NCBI GenBank assembly: GCA_902783745.1
Contig: CACZRY010000187.1
Span: 1 to 14,460 of the forward strand
DNA: 14,460 nt
Source of the DNA: an uncultured Erysipelotrichaceae bacterium
GTDB taxonomy: Bacteria; Bacillota_I; Bacilli_A; Acholeplasmatales; Anaeroplasmataceae
Reading direction: 5' to 3'
Positions 3,459 to 14,460 of the stretch are shown in pieces. How positions within the stretch are numbered: position 1 is the first letter of the stretch; each line of letters opens with the position of its first letter. The notes beneath the pieces are model-generated. The model did not search any database, was not told the origin of the DNA, and worked only from the letters and a program-made list of their open reading frames with translations. The translations under genes were made by a program, and so were the position numbers.

Positions 3459-3548
3459 CTTTAAAACCTCTACTTTCACAAATAGTATTTTACAATAAAT
3501 ATAGTAAAAATGAAATATTTATTTTATAATAAAATAAAAGGTGATTTT

Positions 3549-4400
3549 ATGAACAAAGAAATGATACATTATTATTTTTTTAAAAACTTAATAAATAGCC
3601 TACCTAATAATATAATTAGTGAATTATCTTTATCTGATGATAAGATTTTTTATTATGCAAATATAATGTCAATTGATAAATATTATTCTATATTTTCATT
3701 AAGACGTGATAAGGTTAAAATTCTATCTAAGATTAAAGAAAACTTTAATCAATTTTATACAAATTTATTAATTAATATATCTGAAAATAAAAATATAAAT
3801 AATTTAATTTTTGCTTATTCTTTTTTAGCATATAATATGTTAGAAGAATATATAGGAAATTATGTAAATACATTTAAACCTTATAAATTAAATTATTATG
3901 AAGCATTAAATATGATAGACCTATATTTTTATAAGAAAATATTTCCTAATCAAAAAAAGCCAAATATTAGAAGAGATTTTAAAGATTTATCATATGACTA
4001 TAAAGTAGATAAGCTTATGCATTCTGCAGTTGTTAAATCTATAAATCAAACAGCTGTTACACCATATTTTTATAGATGTAATAAAAAAAGAAATTTATTT
4101 TATAAGCATTATAATAAATTCTATATAAAACCATTTATTTATTTAATTGATATATTTAGAAAAAATAAAAGAAATAAAGCTTATTTTTATAAAAATAAAA
4201 TAGATGAGAATCTATTGAATAATTCTCATCAAGAATTTATTGTATCTGATATTAAATATAATTATTCAATTGATGAATTAATTGAATATCTAATTAAAGA
4301 AATGATTCCTACTTGTGAAATGATTAATAATTATTTAGCAGATGGAAATGATAAAGAAATAAGAATATATTTTAATATTCCTGATGAAAAGGAAATGTAA
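3549..4400 (+). CDS. Divergent zinc-dependent phospholipase C-like protein, possibly inactive
   Basis: 283 residues, helix-rich and strongly Asn/Lys/Tyr-biased, with no signal peptide. Its layout resembles the bacterial zinc-dependent phospholipase C (PF00882-like) family: MIHYYFFKNLINSLPNNI (5-22) fits the N-terminal THxxF segment; NIMSID (38-43) fits the GPD segment; IFAYSFLAYNMLEEYIGNYV (87-106) fits the CHYxLDxxxHPY segment; and NNSHQEF with SIDELIEYL (224-248) fits the C-terminal LNxxHxxW...SFxEL segment. His7 and possibly Asp43 remain, but the central His residues are replaced, so catalysis is doubtful. The assignment is by pattern only. ATG 3549 is preceded by AAGGTG 5 nt away; an in-frame ATG at 3510 has no ribosome site. 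It is first in a four-gene operon, 17 nt ahead of the DUF1538 gene. Confidence 0.55.
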   Translation: MNKEMIHYYFFKNLINSLPNNIISELSLSDDKIFYYANIMSIDKYYSIFSLRRDKVKILSKIKENFNQFYTNLLINISENKNINNLIFAYSFLAYNMLEEYIGNYVNTFKPYKLNYYEALNMIDLYFYKKIFPNQKKPNIRRDFKDLSYDYKVDKLMHSAVVKSINQTAVTPYFYRCNKKRNLFYKHYNKFYIKPFIYLIDIFRKNKRNKAYFYKNKIDENLLNNSHQEFIVSDIKYNYSIDELIEYLIKEMIPTCEMINNYLADGNDKEIRIYFNIPDEKEM

Positions 4401-4417
4401 TATTTTAGGAGTTTTAT

Positions 4418-5965
4418 ATGTTTTTTAAGTTTTTAGATAAGATAAAAGAGGCTATGACAACAGTATTACCTGTTAGTTTAATAATAATTATTTTATCATT
4501 TACTCCTCTTTACAATCTAAGTTTAACAGAAATTATAGTATTTATAATATCTTCTATCATATTAATGATAGGTATAGCATTATTCTCACTTGGTAGTGAG
4601 ATAGCAATGGAGCCAATGGGACAAGCAATTGGATCTTCTTTATTTAAAAATAAAAAAGTATTGATAATTGTATTAATATGTTTTGTATTTGGATTACTTC
4701 TTACATTATCAGAACCTGATGTATTTGAATTACAGGAGATGAGTGAAGGTATATCCCTACATTCTTTTACCCATTTTATGGGATTATATATTTCTATTGG
4801 TGCTGGTATATTTTTAGTTATAGGTATATTTAGAATTATATTTAAAATGGATTTAGGTATGATTCTATTCTTTAGTTATTTTGTTATCTTTAGTTTTATT
4901 ACTATCCTTATATATAATGGTAAGGAAGAAATGCTTGGAATGATATTTGATACTGGTGGTGTTACAACAGGTGCAATATCAGTTCCGTTCTTAATGGCAT
5001 TAGGTATTGGTGCTTCACAAACTATTGGTGGTAAGAATTTTAAAGACAAATCATTTGGTCTTTTAGCTTTATGTAGTATTGGACCTATTATTGTAATATT
5101 AGTAAGAGCTTTTTTTATTAAAGATAATGAAATCACCTTTAATTTAGATAAGATTGAATATGGTATTGAAGATAATGGACTTGAAGTATTAACAAAAGCT
5201 TTAAAAGAAATGGGAAAGCTAAGTTTAGAAATTTTTATTGGACTTGCGGTACTATTTATTATTTTCTTATTATTAAATAATAAATTTATTAAATTCCCTA
5301 AAAGTAAGATAAAAGTTATACTTATCGGATTAATAATAACATTTATAGGTACTGTTTTATTCCTTACAGCTTCTTCTATCGGATTCCATCCAATTGGATT
5401 TGAAATAGGATCTCAACTTGCAAATTATAATCCTATATGGTTAGTATTAATTGGGTTCTCACTAGGTATATTTGTATCACTCGCAGAACCACCAGTTCAT
5501 ATATTATGTCATAAGGTAAGTGATGTAACACAAGGCGGTGTTTCAAAGAAAAACCTACTTATTGCAATATCTATTGGTGTTGGTTTATCAATTGCGTTAT
5601 GTATGATTAGAATTATATTTAATTTTTCTATTTTATATTTCTTAGTACCTGGTTATTTTATAGCATTAGGACTTGCAATATTTATTCCAAAAATTCATAC
5701 TGCAATCGCATATGATGCAGGTGGTGTTGCATCAGGTCCTGTTACATTAAGCTTAATATTGCCACTCGCTATTGGTGCATCTTCTATCTTGCATAGTAAT
5801 AATGTTCTTGCAGATGCATTCGGAATTGTCGCAATGGTTTCTTTAGTTCCTTTAATAACAATTCAATTACTTGGTTTAAAAGATATATTAAAAAAGAAAA
5901 AAATAATGAAAAATAGATTAAAGAATATAATTTCTGCAGATGATGAAAGGATAATTCGCTTTTAA
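4418..5965 (+). CDS. DUF1538 integral membrane protein (two tandem repeats)
   Basis: 515 residues with about a dozen hydrophobic segments and no cleavable signal. The protein is an internal duplication. SEP (98-100) with the preceding MEPMG (64-68) in the first half corresponds to AEPP (356-359) with HPIG (324-327) in the second. DTGGVTTG (178-185) followed by LGIGAS corresponds to DAGGVASG (433-440) followed by LAIGAS. These paired motifs are characteristic of DUF1538 proteins, which are predicted channels or transporters of unknown substrate. Paired Gly-rich re-entrant-like segments suggest a pseudo-symmetric permeation path (inference). The C-terminus ends in a basic cytosolic tail (about 487-515). 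ATG 4418 has AGGAG 6 nt upstream. One base separates its stop from the first P-II-like gene, suggesting regulation by the P-II proteins. Confidence 0.88.
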   Translation: MFFKFLDKIKEAMTTVLPVSLIIIILSFTPLYNLSLTEIIVFIISSIILMIGIALFSLGSEIAMEPMGQAIGSSLFKNKKVLIIVLICFVFGLLLTLSEPDVFELQEMSEGISLHSFTHFMGLYISIGAGIFLVIGIFRIIFKMDLGMILFFSYFVIFSFITILIYNGKEEMLGMIFDTGGVTTGAISVPFLMALGIGASQTIGGKNFKDKSFGLLALCSIGPIIVILVRAFFIKDNEITFNLDKIEYGIEDNGLEVLTKALKEMGKLSLEIFIGLAVLFIIFLLLNNKFIKFPKSKIKVILIGLIITFIGTVLFLTASSIGFHPIGFEIGSQLANYNPIWLVLIGFSLGIFVSLAEPPVHILCHKVSDVTQGGVSKKNLLIAISIGVGLSIALCMIRIIFNFSILYFLVPGYFIALGLAIFIPKIHTAIAYDAGGVASGPVTLSLILPLAIGASSILHSNNVLADAFGIVAMVSLVPLITIQLLGLKDILKKKKIMKNRLKNIISADDERIIRF

Positions 5966-5966
5966 T

Positions 5967-6350
5967 ATGAAAAATGAAGAAAAAGATTTAAAGGCTCCTA
6001 AGAAGCTTGAAATATTATGTACTATAGTTCAAAGATCTAAAGCTGATTTTTATATGAATGCCTTAGAAGGATATGACATTAATTATCAGACATTATGTTA
6101 TGCAAAAGGTAGTGCTCCTACTGAGGCTTTACAAAAACTTGGTATAACAGATGATAGTAAAGCTATTATATTTAGTCTTGTAAAAGAAGAAAAAATAAAA
6201 GAAATAACAAATCTTTATGAGGAAAAGCTTTTTAAAACACATAATGGTAGAGGTATTGCATTCACAATACCACTAGATTCAATAATTGGTGTTATGGTAT
6301 ATCGCTTTTTAGCAAACATTAAGGAGGATGAAAATGGATACAAAATATAA
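5967..6350 (+). CDS. P-II-like regulatory protein (first of pair)
   Basis: 127 residues, soluble. A beta-alpha-beta pattern begins at LEILCTIV (14-21), followed by a helix, a second strand around TLCYAKG (42-48), a short loop, strand KAIIFSLV (65-72), helix KEITNLYEEKLF, and a final strand GIAFTIPLDSIIG (96-108). This is a ferredoxin-like P-II fold, and the last motif is nearly identical to one in the next gene. A charged N-terminal extension (1-13) and C-terminal tail (109-127) are extra relative to a minimal P-II. The region where classical GlnB has its long T-loop is short and has no clear uridylylation Tyr motif. The start is one base after the DUF1538 stop; the nearest AAAGGA is about 16 nt away, so translation by re-initiation is likely. 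Role inferred: ligand-dependent control of the DUF1538 protein. Confidence 0.75.
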   Translation: MKNEEKDLKAPKKLEILCTIVQRSKADFYMNALEGYDINYQTLCYAKGSAPTEALQKLGITDDSKAIIFSLVKEEKIKEITNLYEEKLFKTHNGRGIAFTIPLDSIIGVMVYRFLANIKEDENGYKI

Positions 6351-6648
6351 TTTAATAGTATGTATTGTTAATTCTGGATTTAGTGAATTAGTAATGGAAG
6401 CTGCAAGAAATGCTGGTGCAACAGGCGGTACAATACTAAACGCTAGAGGTACTGTTAAGGAAGAGGCTGCAAGTATATTCAATATACCAATTCATCCAGA
6501 AAAGGATATGATATATATTATTGTTAAAACTGAAATAAGAGATAATGTCTTACATGAATTATATAAAACAGTTGGATTATCTAAGGAATCAAATGGTATT
6601 GCATTCTCAATACCAATCGATAATCTTGTAGGACTTGGAAAAAAGTAA
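6334..6648 (+). CDS. P-II family regulatory protein (second of pair)
   Basis: 104 residues, close to the size of GlnB/GlnK. Strand YNLIVCIV (5-12), helix SELVMEAARNAGA, strand GGTILNARGT (31-40), a short T-loop region (41-56), strand DMIYIIVKTE, helix NVLHELYKTVGL and strand GIAFSIPIDNLVGLG (88-102) give the P-II order. The P-II family senses nucleotides and metabolites and gates membrane transporters and enzymes. The canonical T-loop Tyr is not evident. ATG 6334 is preferred because AAGGAGG (6321-6327) abuts an earlier in-frame ATG at 6328, leaving it no spacing; from 6334 the spacing is 6 nt. It overlaps the end of the first P-II-like gene by 17 nt in another frame. It is last in the operon, before the hairpin terminator. 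Confidence 0.85.
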   Translation: MDTKYNLIVCIVNSGFSELVMEAARNAGATGGTILNARGTVKEEAASIFNIPIHPEKDMIYIIVKTEIRDNVLHELYKTVGLSKESNGIAFSIPIDNLVGLGKK

Positions 6649-6649
6649 A

Positions 6650-6686
6650 GGGTATATAGCAACACGCTATATACCCATATTTTTTA
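6650..6686 (+). terminator. Bidirectional intrinsic terminator between convergent operons
   Basis: GGGTATATAGC (6650-6660) and GCTATATACCC (6666-6676) form a perfect 11-bp stem with a 5-nt loop. ATATTTTTT follows on the plus strand. On the minus strand a T6 run occurs 5 nt past the stem, inside the end of the P-II gene. It can therefore serve both the DUF1538/P-II operon and the minus-strand yqe operon. Confidence 0.88.
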
Positions 6687-6916: not shown

Positions 6917-7816
6917 TTAGTCTTCTATTAATTTACTTGGAATATCCATATAAAGCTTTTCAATCTCAAAATGATTACGTTCTTCTTTTGTAAATACAGA
7001 TACTACAATTGAATTACAATCAACTAATACCCAACTTGAATTAAGACCTTCTACTTTTCTAATATTTAATCCAGAAGACTCTAAATCTTCTAAATATCCT
7101 ATAAATGATGAAGCTTGACGCTCACTTGATACTGAAGCAACAATCATAGTATCATAAAAAGGACTTCTTTCTTTCATATCATAAACTATAATATCTTCAC
7201 ATCTAACCTTTTTAAGTGCGTCTATAACCTTATCAATCATTTCATTCTCTACCTTTTCCTTATAAATATTAAATACCTCTACTTGACTTGGATGAGGTAC
7301 CTCATTATTTTTTAAAACTACATCTATAGTATACATAAGAGATTTATAAATTGCTAGATTAAATTTACCATCTAATAAAATTTTTCTACATTCTATACAA
7401 TTTTCATATGTTCTATTCTTTTCAGTATAATCAGAAATCATTATAATTTCTTCTAATGGTGACATATTTTTTCTACCAAAAACATGATATCTTATTGCAT
7501 TATAAATATCTATATCATCACCTATTAATTCCTTATACCAATATGCTGAAAGATATGCGTGATATAAAAATGGATATTTCTCACATTCTTCTATATCTTC
7601 TTTTGATAAATATTTATATGCCTCTTTAAAATCATCATATTTAGAATAATCATGCATCAAACCTGCAATTCTAGCCTTAATAGGATCTACTCCCATTTTC
7701 TTAGCTAAGAATTCAGCCATTTCTGCAACACCATAGATATGAGTTAATCTCTTATCATGGATACCTTTCATTTTATTAGTTATAATTTCATATGCTTTAT
7801 CGCTAGATGATTGCAT
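6917..7816 (-). CDS. YqeK-type HD phosphohydrolase fused to ribosomal silencing factor RsfS
   Basis: 299 residues with two domains. Residues 1 to about 190 are a YqeK HD domain: RLTHIYGV with His26, MHDYSKY with His55-Asp56, His86 in LYHAYLSA, AIRYHVFG with His111, and ISDYTEKNR with Asp129. The family hydrolyses diadenosine tetraphosphate symmetrically to ADP. Residues from about 192 are an RsfS/YbeB domain: IDALKKVRCEDIIVYDM, PFYDTMIVAS, SSWVLVDCNSIVVSVF and FEIEKLY. RsfS binds ribosomal protein uL14 and blocks subunit joining. The HVF and YxLExLW signatures of RsfS are changed (SVF, FEIEKLY). In Bacillus these are separate neighbouring genes, and here no stop or restart separates them. The start overlaps the yqeH end by 14 nt, with AGAGG about 12 nt upstream, suggesting coupling. 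Confidence 0.9.
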   Translation of the reverse strand: MQSSSDKAYEIITNKMKGIHDKRLTHIYGVAEMAEFLAKKMGVDPIKARIAGLMHDYSKYDDFKEAYKYLSKEDIEECEKYPFLYHAYLSAYWYKELIGDDIDIYNAIRYHVFGRKNMSPLEEIIMISDYTEKNRTYENCIECRKILLDGKFNLAIYKSLMYTIDVVLKNNEVPHPSQVEVFNIYKEKVENEMIDKVIDALKKVRCEDIIVYDMKERSPFYDTMIVASVSSERQASSFIGYLEDLESSGLNIRKVEGLNSSWVLVDCNSIVVSVFTKEERNHFEIEKLYMDIPSKLIED

Positions 7817-10122: not shown

Positions 10123-11766
10123 TTATGCCAATAAATTAGTTAATCCAATAAATGCTTCTTCATCAAATGGATTATTAAGGCCTGCATTTTCAATTCCGTC
10201 TTTAAATTTATAATTATTTGAATCAAACTCATATATAGATTTATATATATTTTGAGCATTATTATAATCTTTAATACCCTCTTCATACATATTAACTGCA
10301 GGAATTAATGATGTTGCATAAGAAATGTAATAGAATTGTGAATCAACTATTGCACGATGATAATATTCTAATGGATCTCCACCTTGTAAAGCTTGCTTAA
10401 TTTTTTCATATCCACCCATGTTTTCACATACATCTAACATTACATCATTTAACTGATCTTTTGTATAATTGCTTGAATTAGAATAAACCTCTTGTTCAAA
10501 TTGATCCATAAGTGTTGATAATAGAATGATTCTAAAACAATCTCTAATTTTATATTTCTTTATTGCATCTGTTAAATTAGCGCCTAGTTTATTTTCATTA
10601 TTAACTAAATATGCTAAAAATAACATTTCATTACATTGTGATTGAGATTCACTAATATCTAATGCAGGATTTGGTATATTATTTTTTCCTGAATAAATCA
10701 TTGCATTCATATGCCCAAATTCATGTACTTTAGTAAATATGTTTTGATATCCCATACCAAAATAACAAATTGCAGTTTTAGATTCAGCTAAATATGTTGT
10801 ATATGCTCCTTCTACTGAATTTAAAGTAGTGGCATAAAATGCATTTGTATTCTTAAATTTATAATAATTATTCTTAAATGAATTATCATCAAATGTGGAC
10901 ATATATGAATCAAAATATGTCATATTAGATGATTTATCACTAGATTTAAAAAAAGAATCAAATTTTTCTTTTTCAGTTACTGTTAAATCACTAGATAATG
11001 TATCTTTAGTATATTGGTTTTCATATAATGTAGGAACAATATATTGTGCTACATAATCAGCTAATTTATCAGCATCTTCTTCGTCATAATCTCTACCAAA
11101 ATAGTCATATTGATATTCTAAGACAGAATCATAGCCTGCTTCTTTAGCAAGTTCTTTATATGAATTAATTATTTTAATGTAGATTTCTTCAACATTACTT
11201 TGATAATTAGAATCTTGCTGAGATAAATCATTAAACTCTGTTTCATATTCATCAATATCATTTTGTAATTCATAATATCTATCAGAATAATCTTTACCAA
11301 TTATTTTTGAAATTTCTTCATCAGTTTTATCTCCAAACATTAATGTTCTTAAAATTGGAATATCTTTTGAAATAGTAAGATATTCTTTATATTTCAAAAA
11401 AGCAGTTTGAATTTTGTCTTGAATAGAAAAATATCTAGTAGTACCTCTTGATTTGTCTAAAGAATAACTTACATATTCCTTTGATCTACATGATGTAAGT
11501 TTATATATATAATTGATATATTGTTGCATATATAAAGTTATTCTATATTTTTCTAAATCAGATAATTCTTCTTTATCTTTCAAATCATTTGAGCTATTAA
11601 TCAAATAATCTATATTTGATATATTTGTATTGTATTCACTTTCACTTAATGTATAACTTAATAAAGATGATTCATTTCTATATAAAAAATCACTTAAGTT
11701 ACAACTACTTAATGTAAATATAGAAGCTACTATAATCCCTAATAATAAAAGTTTCTTTTTAAGCAT
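10123..11766 (-). CDS. Lipid-anchored M3-family (oligoendopeptidase-like) zinc metallopeptidase
   Basis: 547 residues. A lipoprotein signal runs from MLKKKLLLLGIIVAS to the lipobox LSSC with Cys22. A helical Asp/Glu/Tyr-rich region follows. The catalytic zinc site is KVHEFGHMNAM with His348, Glu349 and His352; Glu373 within DISESQSQCNE fits the third ligand, matching the AExASTxNE region of M3 peptidases. Length and helical content agree with M3 oligopeptidases, though most known ones are cytosolic and lack a signal. Role inferred: peptide trimming at the outer membrane face. ATG 11766 has AAGGAG 9 nt upstream. A longer frame reaching 11844 would run through the neighbour's terminator and is rejected. 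No hairpin is visible after the stop; the next promoter begins within 16 nt. Confidence 0.85.
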   Translation of the reverse strand: MLKKKLLLLGIIVASIFTLSSCNLSDFLYRNESSLLSYTLSESEYNTNISNIDYLINSSNDLKDKEELSDLEKYRITLYMQQYINYIYKLTSCRSKEYVSYSLDKSRGTTRYFSIQDKIQTAFLKYKEYLTISKDIPILRTLMFGDKTDEEISKIIGKDYSDRYYELQNDIDEYETEFNDLSQQDSNYQSNVEEIYIKIINSYKELAKEAGYDSVLEYQYDYFGRDYDEEDADKLADYVAQYIVPTLYENQYTKDTLSSDLTVTEKEKFDSFFKSSDKSSNMTYFDSYMSTFDDNSFKNNYYKFKNTNAFYATTLNSVEGAYTTYLAESKTAICYFGMGYQNIFTKVHEFGHMNAMIYSGKNNIPNPALDISESQSQCNEMLFLAYLVNNENKLGANLTDAIKKYKIRDCFRIILLSTLMDQFEQEVYSNSSNYTKDQLNDVMLDVCENMGGYEKIKQALQGGDPLEYYHRAIVDSQFYYISYATSLIPAVNMYEEGIKDYNNAQNIYKSIYEFDSNNYKFKDGIENAGLNNPFDEEAFIGLTNLLA

Positions 11767-11791
11767 TATCACCATCTCCTTATATATATTT

Positions 11792-11820
11792 ATTATATTT
11801 AATATTAAATTAAAAATCAA
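11792..11820 (-). promoter_or_regulatory. Promoter of the M3-peptidase lipoprotein gene
   Basis: On the minus strand, -35 TTGATT (11820-11815) and -10 TATAAT (11797-11792) are spaced by 17 nt. The -35 lies within the T-rich tail of the preceding terminator. Confidence 0.78.
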
Positions 11821-11850
11821 ATAAAAGAAGGTATGTAAAAACATACCTTC
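11813..11850 (-). terminator. Intrinsic terminator of the Ala-rich lipoprotein gene
   Basis: GAAGGTATGT (11850-11841, minus) pairs perfectly with ACATACCTTC (11836-11827) over 10 bp with a 4-nt loop, followed by TTTTATTTGATTTTT. It is about 32 nt after the stop codon. Confidence 0.88.
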
Positions 11851-11881: not shown

Positions 11882-13210
11882 TTATTTTCTTAATTCTGAG
11901 TCATTAAATTCGTAAGTGATACTAGCGTTTGGCTTCATTTCGAACTTAACAGCATCATCATACTTGAAATTTAAAGCAACACTTAAGTTTCCTTCTGTAA
12001 ATTCAACAGGAAGTTGAGCACCAGACATTCCCATAGCGACTTTAGCAATATCTCCAAGCTTTTCTGTAGATAATTCTAATGACTTAGGTAAAACATTTGC
12101 AACGTCGATTACACACTTAGCTGTTGCATAAACAGTCTTCTCATCAAATAAAGCAGCACTTGGTTCCACTGCACGGAAAGCATCACCAGATATCGCTTTT
12201 CTTGGAGCAAACATACTATAAGCTTGGTTTAATAACTTACCATTAGCATTTAATGTGAATTCAACATCTGTACCATTAACGCTAGAAATAGTTACACCAA
12301 CTGATTCAATTCCTTCAACAATTTGAGTGAACATTTCAGATTCATAGAAATCTTCTGAAGTTGAAATAGAAACTAATTCTTCATCATCAATTGAAGCATC
12401 TCCAGAAATACCAAATGAAGCTAATAATTCATTTAAAGACTTAGTTTGATAAGCATTTAAATAAGTAGAAATTTGTGCAGCTTTATCGCCTGAAATACTT
12501 TCAGATAATTTTTCATCACTTCTAATATTCTTCTTTAATTCAGTTGTAGTTTCTTCACCTGTTACACTAACACCCATCATTGAAGCTATAGTTGTAGGTA
12601 ACTTAGCACTTGCTTCAACATAACCATATCCTTCATCATAGAAAAGCTTAGCATTTCCATTAGCTTCCATATTTAACATTTTTTCAACGTTAGAAGCAGC
12701 TTCATCAATTGCTGTTTGATCAGTAATACCTAATTGTGTAGCTAATTCGCTTTTATCAACAGATGCCTTTAACTTTGCATTTGCAGATGCACTTGCTTCA
12801 AAATCAATATTATTTGCAAATTGATTAATTGCAGCTTGTTCTTGTTCTTCACTTAAACCAGTTTTTAAAGCTTCAGTATAATCAGTATATGTATTCTTAC
12901 CAATTGTAACCTTTGCTTCAGCAGATGCACTTGCTGTTAATTCAACATTAGCACCCATAGCTTTTCCCTTAACTTTTGCATTTACATCAAGATTTGCACC
13001 AACAGCATAAATCTTCTTTCCATCTTGTTGAGAAATAACAACTAAAGCCTTTGCTACATCTTCAGCCTTTTCAGTCTTTGCAATAACAACTTCGTTACCA
13101 TTAGCATCCTTTAATTTTGCTTCAGTAGCTGCGTTATTACATGCAGTTAATGATAATGCTGATACTGCTAAACCAGCAATTGCGCCCATACTTAAAAATA
13201 ATTTTTTCAT
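11882..13210 (-). CDS. Ala-rich surface lipoprotein, paralogue of the adjacent lipoprotein
   Basis: 442 residues. The signal MKKLFLSMGAIAGLAVSALS ends in lipobox LTAC with Cys24. The mature part begins NNAATEAKLKDANGNEV, then has repeated Ala/Ser/Lys-rich strand-like blocks (for example ELTASASAEAKVTIGKNTY and IDFEASASANAKLKASV), and later NAYQTKSLNELL, DFYESEMF and VNGTDVEFTLNANG. The same landmarks occur in the neighbouring gene at 13337, so the two form a family. Alternating small and charged residues suggest beta structure. No enzymatic motif is seen, and I do not recognise the family. ATG 13210 is preferred by the signal peptide. AAGGAG lies 13 nt away, rather far, and no better start intervenes. 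It has its own promoter and terminator. Confidence 0.82.
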   Translation of the reverse strand: MKKLFLSMGAIAGLAVSALSLTACNNAATEAKLKDANGNEVVIAKTEKAEDVAKALVVISQQDGKKIYAVGANLDVNAKVKGKAMGANVELTASASAEAKVTIGKNTYTDYTEALKTGLSEEQEQAAINQFANNIDFEASASANAKLKASVDKSELATQLGITDQTAIDEAASNVEKMLNMEANGNAKLFYDEGYGYVEASAKLPTTIASMMGVSVTGEETTTELKKNIRSDEKLSESISGDKAAQISTYLNAYQTKSLNELLASFGISGDASIDDEELVSISTSEDFYESEMFTQIVEGIESVGVTISSVNGTDVEFTLNANGKLLNQAYSMFAPRKAISGDAFRAVEPSAALFDEKTVYATAKCVIDVANVLPKSLELSTEKLGDIAKVAMGMSGAQLPVEFTEGNLSVALNFKYDDAVKFEMKPNASITYEFNDSELRK

Positions 13211-13249
13211 AATATTTAACCCACTCCTTCTTAATTTTAAGTCATTATA

Positions 13250-13277
13250 ATTATAAAACAAAATAAAATAAATTCAA
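13250..13277 (-). promoter_or_regulatory. Promoter of the Ala-rich lipoprotein gene
   Basis: On the minus strand, -35 TTGAAT (13277-13272) and -10 TATAAT (13255-13250) are spaced by 16 nt. A second TATAAT follows directly at 13249-13244 but is too far from this -35. Confidence 0.65.
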
Positions 13278-13336: not shown

Positions 13337-14460
13337 TTATACTATCCAATGTACTGACTCTTCTAAAATAGTATTTAAATCTGCTTCTTTATATTCCTTT
13401 TTACTATCCTTAGATAATGTAAATTTTACATCATCATTATATGTAATAACATTTTTTAAGTTTATTTTAAATTTAGTAGTATTGGTATCATCATCAAGAA
13501 TATCATTCATATCAATTTCAAGATTACAATCTTCTGATTTAATTAGACCTTCGTTTGAGAATACAATATTATATTCTCCAAGCTTTTTGTCTTTCAAATC
13601 TGAAGTTGTATTAATATCAGCAATACTTATAAAATTAGACATATCAGACATAGCTTTAGTTATTTCAGAATAAAAATTAGCATTAAAATTAATTTTAAAT
13701 GTTACATCATCATTTGATATTGATGTAATTTCAACGTCATTATCAGAAACAAACTTTTTTAAATAATTATAATAATCTGATTCATAGAAATTTTCTGTAG
13801 TATATTCAGATAATTCCAAATTTGTATATTTAGATAATAAAGTATAAAAATTAGAGCTTTGATATTCATTTAAAATACTTGTGATATATGTACAAGGTAG
13901 TCCCTCAAAAAAATTTGTACTAACATAATTATTACTAAAATTAGGTTCATCAGGATTATTTTTAGTACCTTCTAATTCTAAATATAAATTACCTGATTCC
14001 AAAAATCCTTTTATATCCATATTAATATTATTATTTGTTTCAGTACTAATATTTGGTATATTATTATAATCTACCCCTAGAGAAGAACAATACTGTATAA
14101 ATTCATCTCTATTAATAGTGCTTTTACTTTGTACATTTTCAGATAATTGAACTTCTAAATCAACATTGTTTTTTAATTCTTCTTTAGCTTTAGAAAAATC
14201 TTCTTCCGTTGTTATATCCTTTTCCGAAAAATTAGTGTATTTATTTTTACCAATTGTAAGTCTTACATCACCATTCATAGATGTTTTTGAATAATCACTT
14301 AAATAATTTACTTTATATTCTTGTTCAGTTTCACTTTCAGTATGAATGCCAACTGAATAAATATTTTTTTGATTTTCAAATGCTTTATTTGCATATGCTG
14401 CAAATGCTTTTGAAACCAATTCTTCATCGTTTGATTTTTTTACTGTTATTTCTTCACCAC
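13337..14460 (-). CDS. Paralogous lipoprotein-type protein, N-terminus beyond window
   Basis: The frame is open to the right edge: in-frame codons upstream of the TTG at 14419 read GEEITVKKSNDEEL, which aligns with GNEVVIAKTEKAED of the neighbouring lipoprotein. The true start and expected lipoprotein signal therefore lie outside. At least 373 residues are visible. Shared landmarks with the gene at 11882 are NIYSVGIHT versus KIYAVGANL, TIGKNKYTNF versus TIGKNTYTDY, NEYQSSNFYTLL versus NAYQTKSLNELL, FYESDYYNYL versus FYESEMFTQI, and ITSISNDDVTFKINFNANF versus ISSVNGTDVEFTLNANG. It differs in bias, being Asn/Ser/Asp/Glu-rich where the neighbour is Ala-rich. It lies directly upstream in the same direction. 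No clear terminator is seen after its stop, but the neighbour has a promoter. Function unknown. Confidence 0.8.
   Translation of the reverse strand, partial: GEEITVKKSNDEELVSKAFAAYANKAFENQKNIYSVGIHTESETEQEYKVNYLSDYSKTSMNGDVRLTIGKNKYTNFSEKDITTEEDFSKAKEELKNNVDLEVQLSENVQSKSTINRDEFIQYCSSLGVDYNNIPNISTETNNNINMDIKGFLESGNLYLELEGTKNNPDEPNFSNNYVSTNFFEGLPCTYITSILNEYQSSNFYTLLSKYTNLELSEYTTENFYESDYYNYLKKFVSDNDVEITSISNDDVTFKINFNANFYSEITKAMSDMSNFISIADINTTSDLKDKKLGEYNIVFSNEGLIKSEDCNLEIDMNDILDDDTNTTKFKINLKNVITYNDDVKFTLSKDSKKEYKEADLNTILEESVHWIV

Follow-up and report, generated by a model that had tools for sequence, protein, structure and literature searches.

The window, a 14,460-nucleotide (nt) stretch of DNA from an uncultured Erysipelotrichaceae bacterium, carries a gene for a DUF1538 membrane protein followed directly by two genes for P-II-like proteins (PII-A and PII-B), and this arrangement raises the question of whether the three genes form a unit and what a pair of P-II-like regulators would do beside such a membrane protein. 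The contig is part of a 1.44-Mb draft genome that is 82% complete. An earlier note on this DNA described a four-gene cassette, in which a phospholipase C-like gene (gene 1) precedes the DUF1538, PII-A and PII-B genes (genes 2-4). The four plus-strand open reading frames (ORFs) at 3549-6648 are indeed present, the gaps of 17 nt and 1 nt and the subsequent 17-nt overlap are correct as described, and the strong hairpin at the cassette end is real (-17.7 kcal/mol, z -6.4, with 0 of 200 shuffles as good). Comparison across genomes reveals that genes 2-4 hold as a unit, whereas gene 1 is not a member. Genes 2-4 probably encode a cation/H+ antiporter of the DUF1538/UmpAB family under the direct control of P-II regulators.

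The linkage of DUF1538 to P-II genes was analyzed in 295 genomes from the phylum of the window, in which a PII-B-profile match no more than 1.5 kb downstream was counted as linkage. DUF1538 is present in 58 of these genomes at 60 loci, and 58 of the 60 loci exhibit such a match. One miss is half a DUF1538 gene that lies 35 bases from a contig end (G262:C62), and the other is a DUF1538 fragment inside a contig (G211:C61:4923-5156, locus L237), which covers 78 of 211 domain positions, has no P-II beside it and is probably a remnant. The order DUF1538, PII-A and PII-B is observed in 28 of 30 loci (L003-L032, the window's own genome included), the gaps measuring -41 to 13 nt between DUF1538 and PII-A and -23 to 5 nt between PII-A and PII-B when the first ATG, GTG or TTG is taken as the start; the two remaining loci (L011 and L019) end at contig edges and were not counted. 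Additionally, a P-II ORF lies directly behind DUF1538 in all 80 of the best 80 of 538 DUF1538 matches on the contigs of named genomes.

A second sample of 167 genomes, centred on a genome with a locus labelled Fibrobacter, is taken as a distinct phylum because it comprises 167 genomes in all and, apart from the central genome, none of those listed occurs in the earlier samples. DUF1538 is present in 83 of the 167 genomes, and a P-II-like gene lies behind it in all 83. At the threshold used for this listing (E <= 1e-12), the PII-B profile matches behind DUF1538 in 75 of the best 76 loci, and in the one miss PII-A is followed by Ns. Seven other genomes, the loci of which were examined singly, are divergent: one contains a single P-II (G366), and six contain a 375-406-residue protein, which is described below. 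Among 72,556 plasmid records, DUF1538 is found in nine, and the same nine match the P-II of Methylocystis; these records span Bacillota and Alphaproteobacteria. In Methylocystis and Chelativorans (Alphaproteobacteria), two short DUF1538 genes are followed by one P-II gene. The link between DUF1538 and two P-IIs, as first seen in the window, is therefore real, and almost every sampled genome that has DUF1538 shows it; the contrary expectation, that DUF1538 homologues usually lack P-II neighbours, fails for this reason. DUF1538, PII-A and PII-B constitute a real, widely conserved three-gene unit that is commoner than chance.

In a fast tree, seven loci labelled Bacteroidota and three labelled Fibrobacterota fall into groups of their own amid Bacillota-labelled rows, which suggests that the cassette was transferred between phyla; the labels of draft genomes can err, and the second-phylum sample supports the label for one of the two phyla. 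The flanks of the cassette vary among the loci compared. Public annotation places a "DUF1538 domain-containing protein" beside a "P-II family nitrogen regulator", and the adjacency is thus visible there but, as far as seen, undiscussed. The literature searched, with subscription journals mostly outside the search, yielded no paper whose title or abstract deals with the link. PF07556, the Pfam family of DUF1538, appears in a table of pH-adaptation features, and a search for P-II in that paper found none (PMC13255231).

PF07556 matches the DUF1538 protein of the window twice (363.4 bits, with both domains over the Pfam cut-off), and the two halves are homologous to each other (hhalign 99.9%, E 2e-35). 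UmpA and UmpB of Halomonas zhaodongensis, which contain one DUF1538 domain each, were shown in 2017 to form a heterodimer with Na+(Li+,K+)/H+ antiport activity (PMC5484666). The substrate of DUF1538 proteins, given as unknown in the earlier note, is thus not wholly so. That note proposed a ligand-gated channel or transporter; in light of the activity of UmpAB, "antiporter" is better founded than "channel". The main text of the UmpAB paper does not mention P-II; the cloned fragment contained ORF1-4, of which ORF3-4 are umpAB, and a later gene behind umpAB could therefore be missed.

The AlphaFold2 model of the DUF1538 protein is confident (predicted local distance difference test, pLDDT, 92.5). 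Four acidic residues, E99, D178, E357 and D433, are invariant in 75 DUF1538 sequences. The pairs E99/E357 and D178/D433 occupy matching places in the two halves and are located at, or a few residues from, helix breaks of the model. After the last helix, the protein ends in a conserved acidic-hydrophobic C-terminal tail (...DDERIIRF; DDExIIxF), the last F of which is nearly invariant in the same 75 sequences, and this tail is a candidate docking peptide.

Both small proteins are P-II-like, as had been proposed, PII-A by its predicted fold and PII-B by its score; the other refuting outcome named in the earlier note, that neither would form a P-II-like trimer, thus fails as regards the fold. PII-B matches PF00543 above the cut-off (26.4 bits versus 25), and PII-A scores under it (20.8 bits); the PII-A profile matches the PII-B profile (hhalign 98%, E 1.4e-13), and the model of PII-A shows the P-II fold, with the ferredoxin-like beta-alpha-beta-beta-alpha-beta arrangement. 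The PII-B family profile matches 6310 of 8000 scored candidates at E <= 0.001. PotN is matched both by the PII-B profile and by the fold search with PII-A. A canonical P-II is also encoded in the window's own genome (G000:C64:11599-11913), inside a 607-residue open frame; in a genome of the same genus (L184), such a frame reads as an Amt protein that ends in a canonical P-II.

The composition of the P-II part was compared in 137 full-length loci. In 123 of these, the two P-IIs stand as separate genes, and seven carry them in a single ORF of 215-237 residues; the remainder comprise loci at contig ends, loci with overlapping or longer frames and a single locus, L139, that has three P-II ORFs. 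Several loci occur twice from one genome in both the 137 and the 123 rows (at least L005/L117, L010/L124, L024/L137, L012/L034, L013/L075 and L014/L033), and L118 and L121, in which DUF1538 is shorter than 450 residues and P-II is present, were excluded. Double P-II proteins of 231-244 residues are also found in the named species Bacillus aquiflavi and Evansella cellulosilytica (P0045 and P0060). These fusions fit a physical partnership of PII-A and PII-B. In the second phylum, six genomes (G338, G339, G340, G361, G362 and G500) encode a protein of 375-406 residues behind a long DUF1538, the frame of which is broken in G361. These proteins contain one clear P-II-like domain (E 1.9e-5 to 1.4e-14) and a second, weak one, as judged with the PII profile, and a Pfam search detected no P-II domain in the three of them that were submitted to it. 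When read by eye, they perhaps contain a third, first-placed P-II domain, and such a protein may amount to a single-chain P-II trimer. Taken together, the fusions and the 375-406-residue proteins can be read as a regulator composed of multiple P-II units, a reading that is compatible with an oligomer without proving one.

Classical P-II proteins bind ATP and 2-oxoglutarate with residues that include Q39, K90, R101 and R103 (PMC8395244; further residue roles were taken from PMC4316997). In 123 loci with PII-A and PII-B, the residue at position 90 is I, L or V in all PII-B proteins and never K in any PII-A protein. Position 101 is G in 108 of the 123 PII-B proteins, R103 is not among the six commonest letters of PII-B (94 rows), and both positions are gaps in all PII-A proteins. 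Q39 is retained in 10 of the 123 PII-B proteins, in which T29 (122), G35 (114), G89 (119) and F92 (120) are kept; the alignment near K58 is uncertain for PII-B. PII-A and PII-B thus lack K90 and other classical residues, which makes it unlikely that a ligand is bound in the classical Mg-ATP/2-oxoglutarate way.

In the proposed mechanism, the UmpA/B-like halves, fused in one chain, would act as a cation/H+ antiporter, and PII-A and PII-B would form a P-II-like (hetero)oligomer, which would dock at the cytoplasmic side of this antiporter. Docking would probably involve the T-loop of PII-B and the C-terminal tail of the antiporter. The docked oligomer may then throttle or release transport through a small ligand held between the P-II subunits, which is probably a signal other than Mg-ATP/2-oxoglutarate in its classical mode. 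Such control would be likened to that of GlnK-AmtB or SbtB-SbtA.

Several observations weigh against this mechanism. The window protein scores far below the cut-offs of the UmpA and UmpB NCBIfam equivalogs (NF041627/NF041628; 142.5/106.5 bits versus 490/500), with 54.6 to 82.5 bits for its separate halves, and its substrate may therefore differ from that of UmpAB. P-II control, according to one review, seems limited to transporters able to work as trimers (PMC10710835). The tail of DUF1538 is lineage-bound, and its link with separate P-IIs is thus not separable from descent: of the 123 loci whose two P-IIs are separate, 107 have the motif, as against 0 of the 7 fused ones; with a looser pattern and five plasmid rows (L035, L061 and L109 being set by hand as not fused), the counts are 117 of 127 and 1 of 12, respectively. 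A correlation between tail and fusion state was considered and is not claimed because the tree contains only two changes of fusion state.

P-IIs also occur without DUF1538. In one family (f9; loci L187-L190 and L193-L197), the five genomes examined have the order pseudouridine synthase, DUF1538, PII-A and PII-B, and four genomes from two genera (G073, G221, G232 and G236) keep PII-A and PII-B intact where DUF1538 is gone behind the pseudouridine synthase. DUF1538 was not found elsewhere in these four genomes, and in G221 one additional ORF lies in between. In G152 (L191:3192-5291), a further PII-B-type gene, which passes PF00543, directly precedes an ATP-binding cassette (ABC) ATPase and a UPF0014 permease, which indicates that this kind of P-II also accompanies another transporter; the ORF upstream of it looks P-II-like by eye only. 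A single weak, lone PII match is present in G292, and of the 92 PII-profile matches obtained in the 295 genomes, 8 lie away from DUF1538. The PII pair may have another task, or may outlive its target for a time, and the four genomes that keep it where DUF1538 is missing suggest that it may also act elsewhere.

Two other explanations draw on these points. The DUF1538 protein could move a substrate other than a monovalent cation, such as a metal ion or bicarbonate/Na+, with the P-IIs serving as CutA- or SbtB-like sensors of it. The low UmpA and UmpB scores and the PII-B-type gene adjoining the ABC/UPF0014 transporter speak for this explanation, as do the structural comparisons: the best 50 VIA matches of the PII-A model include CutA, CPII, SbtB and PotN and lack GlnK (Foldseek ranks CPII and GlnK1 together), and the structure searches found no solved fold clearly resembling the DUF1538 model. 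SbtA is absent from the best 50 matches of the latter, no direct comparison having been made. However, the only DUF1538 pair tested exchanges Na+, Li+ and K+ for H+ (PMC5484666), and another substrate is considered rather unlikely. Alternatively, DUF1538 could be a receptor that holds both P-IIs back at the membrane in response to ion flow, so that released P-IIs regulate another, cytosolic target. The intact pairs without DUF1538 and the gene in G152 would suit such a role, but the linkage to DUF1538 is near-strict elsewhere, the four exceptions are confined to two genera of one family, and no second partner gene stood out, although no systematic search for one was made; this alternative is judged improbable. 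A P-II-controlled antiporter is retained as the probable function of genes 2-4.

Gene 1 was said to be phospholipase C-like and an accessory of the other three. It has no Pfam or NCBIfam match at E <= 0.1, and PF00882 matches neither gene 1 nor six relatives nor any position in its own genome; the accessory role fails both on identity and on membership of the unit. Among 5.8 billion proteins, two homologues were found at E <= 0.001. Matches were obtained in 22 of 60 genomes, the window's own included, and one of the 21 others is a 71-residue piece. Gene 1 lies beside DUF1538 in none of these 21 genomes; in two, both genes share a contig but lie apart (3.4 kb in G011 and 8.3 kb in G001). In a genome of the same genus (G015, locus L158), the order is a phosphoglycerate mutase, a weakly toroid-like gene, gene 1, a 70-residue ORF and a YqeK-RsfS gene. 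These flanks are the window's own neighbours, but here gene 1 and the 70-residue ORF are not separated by a DUF1538 cassette; G015 carries its own cassette on another contig. In the window, the cassette thus parts gene 1 from the ORF that usually adjoins it. That all four genes are one functional operon, for which the 17-nt gap and the common strand would speak, is very improbable, since among 209 DUF1538 loci (overlapping ones counted) the four that belong to the window are the only ones with gene 1 beside DUF1538, the one other occurrence being in L075, 3.4 kb away on the opposite strand, and since L158 has it in the same place without the cassette. Gene 1 was accordingly rejected as a member of the unit and is a neighbour of the cassette; the four-gene set is refuted as a conserved unit, and co-transcription in this one genome is possible. 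In the window, YqeK (an HD phosphatase) and RsfS are fused in one ORF (6917-7816).

The coordinates of the features are listed in the table. For PII-B, the ORF list opens at 6328, and ATG 6334 is preferred as the start because the GGAGG Shine-Dalgarno sequence at 6323-6327 fits it. A promoter scan yielded fewer sites than shuffles (25 versus 31.6), and no promoter is claimed.

Table. Features of the cassette and of related loci (positions refer to the window unless a locus is named; aa, amino acids)
Feature	Position	Strand	Description
Gene 1	3549-4400	+	283 aa; alternative upstream ATG at 3510 possible; small family of the window's genus and one further genus
DUF1538 membrane protein	4418-5965	+	515 aa; PF07556 twice; fused UmpA/UmpB-like halves
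PII-A, divergent P-II-like	5967-6350	+	127 aa; PF00543 below cut-off, profile match to PII-B, predicted P-II fold
PII-B, P-II-like	6334-6648	+	104 aa from ATG 6334 (106 aa if start 6328); PF00543 above cut-off
Terminator hairpin closing the cassette	6650-6676	.	11-pair stem; terminator-like on both strands
Long DUF1538 and 375-406 aa P-II-like protein	L229:1282-4539; L230, L232, L234, L235, L241		

Further along the window, the ORF at 10123-11844 encodes an M3-type peptidase with an HEFGH motif, which reads as lipoprotein-like; its match to TIGR02289 is weak (70.4 bits versus a cut-off of 442.35). The ORFs at 11882-13261 and 13337-14419 encode adjacent, distantly homologous proteins (24% identity) for which no NCBIfam family was found, and the first product looks like a lipoprotein.

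If genes 2-4 encode a P-II-controlled antiporter, P-II signalling extends beyond the uptake of nitrogen and carbon, from which it is mainly known, to the control of cation/H+ exchange, and a role can be given to a widespread gene set that has no name. A broader generalization is offered tentatively, and it may well not hold: the DUF1538 antiporters of several phyla could, as a rule, be P-II-controlled exchangers and form a separate P-II/transporter class. The P-II part of this class would vary (one, two paralogues, two fused or possibly three fused), the classical ATP/2-oxoglutarate site would have been lost in favour of a different signal (an ion, pH, a second messenger or bicarbonate), and the system would sense ion homeostasis instead of nitrogen. 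The natural variants, with single, paired or fused P-IIs or with P-IIs without the transporter, represent ready test material, and solving the structure of the complex would be instructive whatever the outcome, since the DUF1538 model is confident and has no clear solved match.

A dedicated pair of P-II paralogues has a parallel in NifI1/NifI2, which act on nitrogenase, a target that is not a transporter. Compared with the UmpAB pair, the window protein belongs to the same Pfam family and shares the two homologous seven-helix units, whereas UmpAB consists of two separate chains and the window encodes a fused chain followed by two P-II genes. The direct action of P-II proteins on AmtB, SbtA and ABC importers is established (PMC10710835, PMC8352866). 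As in GlnK-AmtB, a P-II gene adjoins a membrane transporter gene, and T-loop docking is proposed by analogy (PMC8395244, PMC10710835); however, the transporter family is different, and the window has two paralogous P-IIs in which K90 is lost and R101 is mostly G. SbtB-SbtA also combines a non-nitrogen P-II-like regulator and a transporter with two inverted repeats in one operon, but it contains a single, homotrimeric SbtB with adenine-nucleotide ligands, and the transporter carries bicarbonate (PMC8352866). PotN, a P-II subfamily of Firmicutes (PDB 7o4x) that was named with a polyamine ABC transporter (PMC9692440), is P-II-like as are PII-A and PII-B, but its name links it to that transporter and not to DUF1538. 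The principle of P-II proteins paired with transporters is thus known, and the DUF1538 unit differs from the known cases in its probable antiporter, in having two P-II paralogues and in the loss of the classical ligand site.

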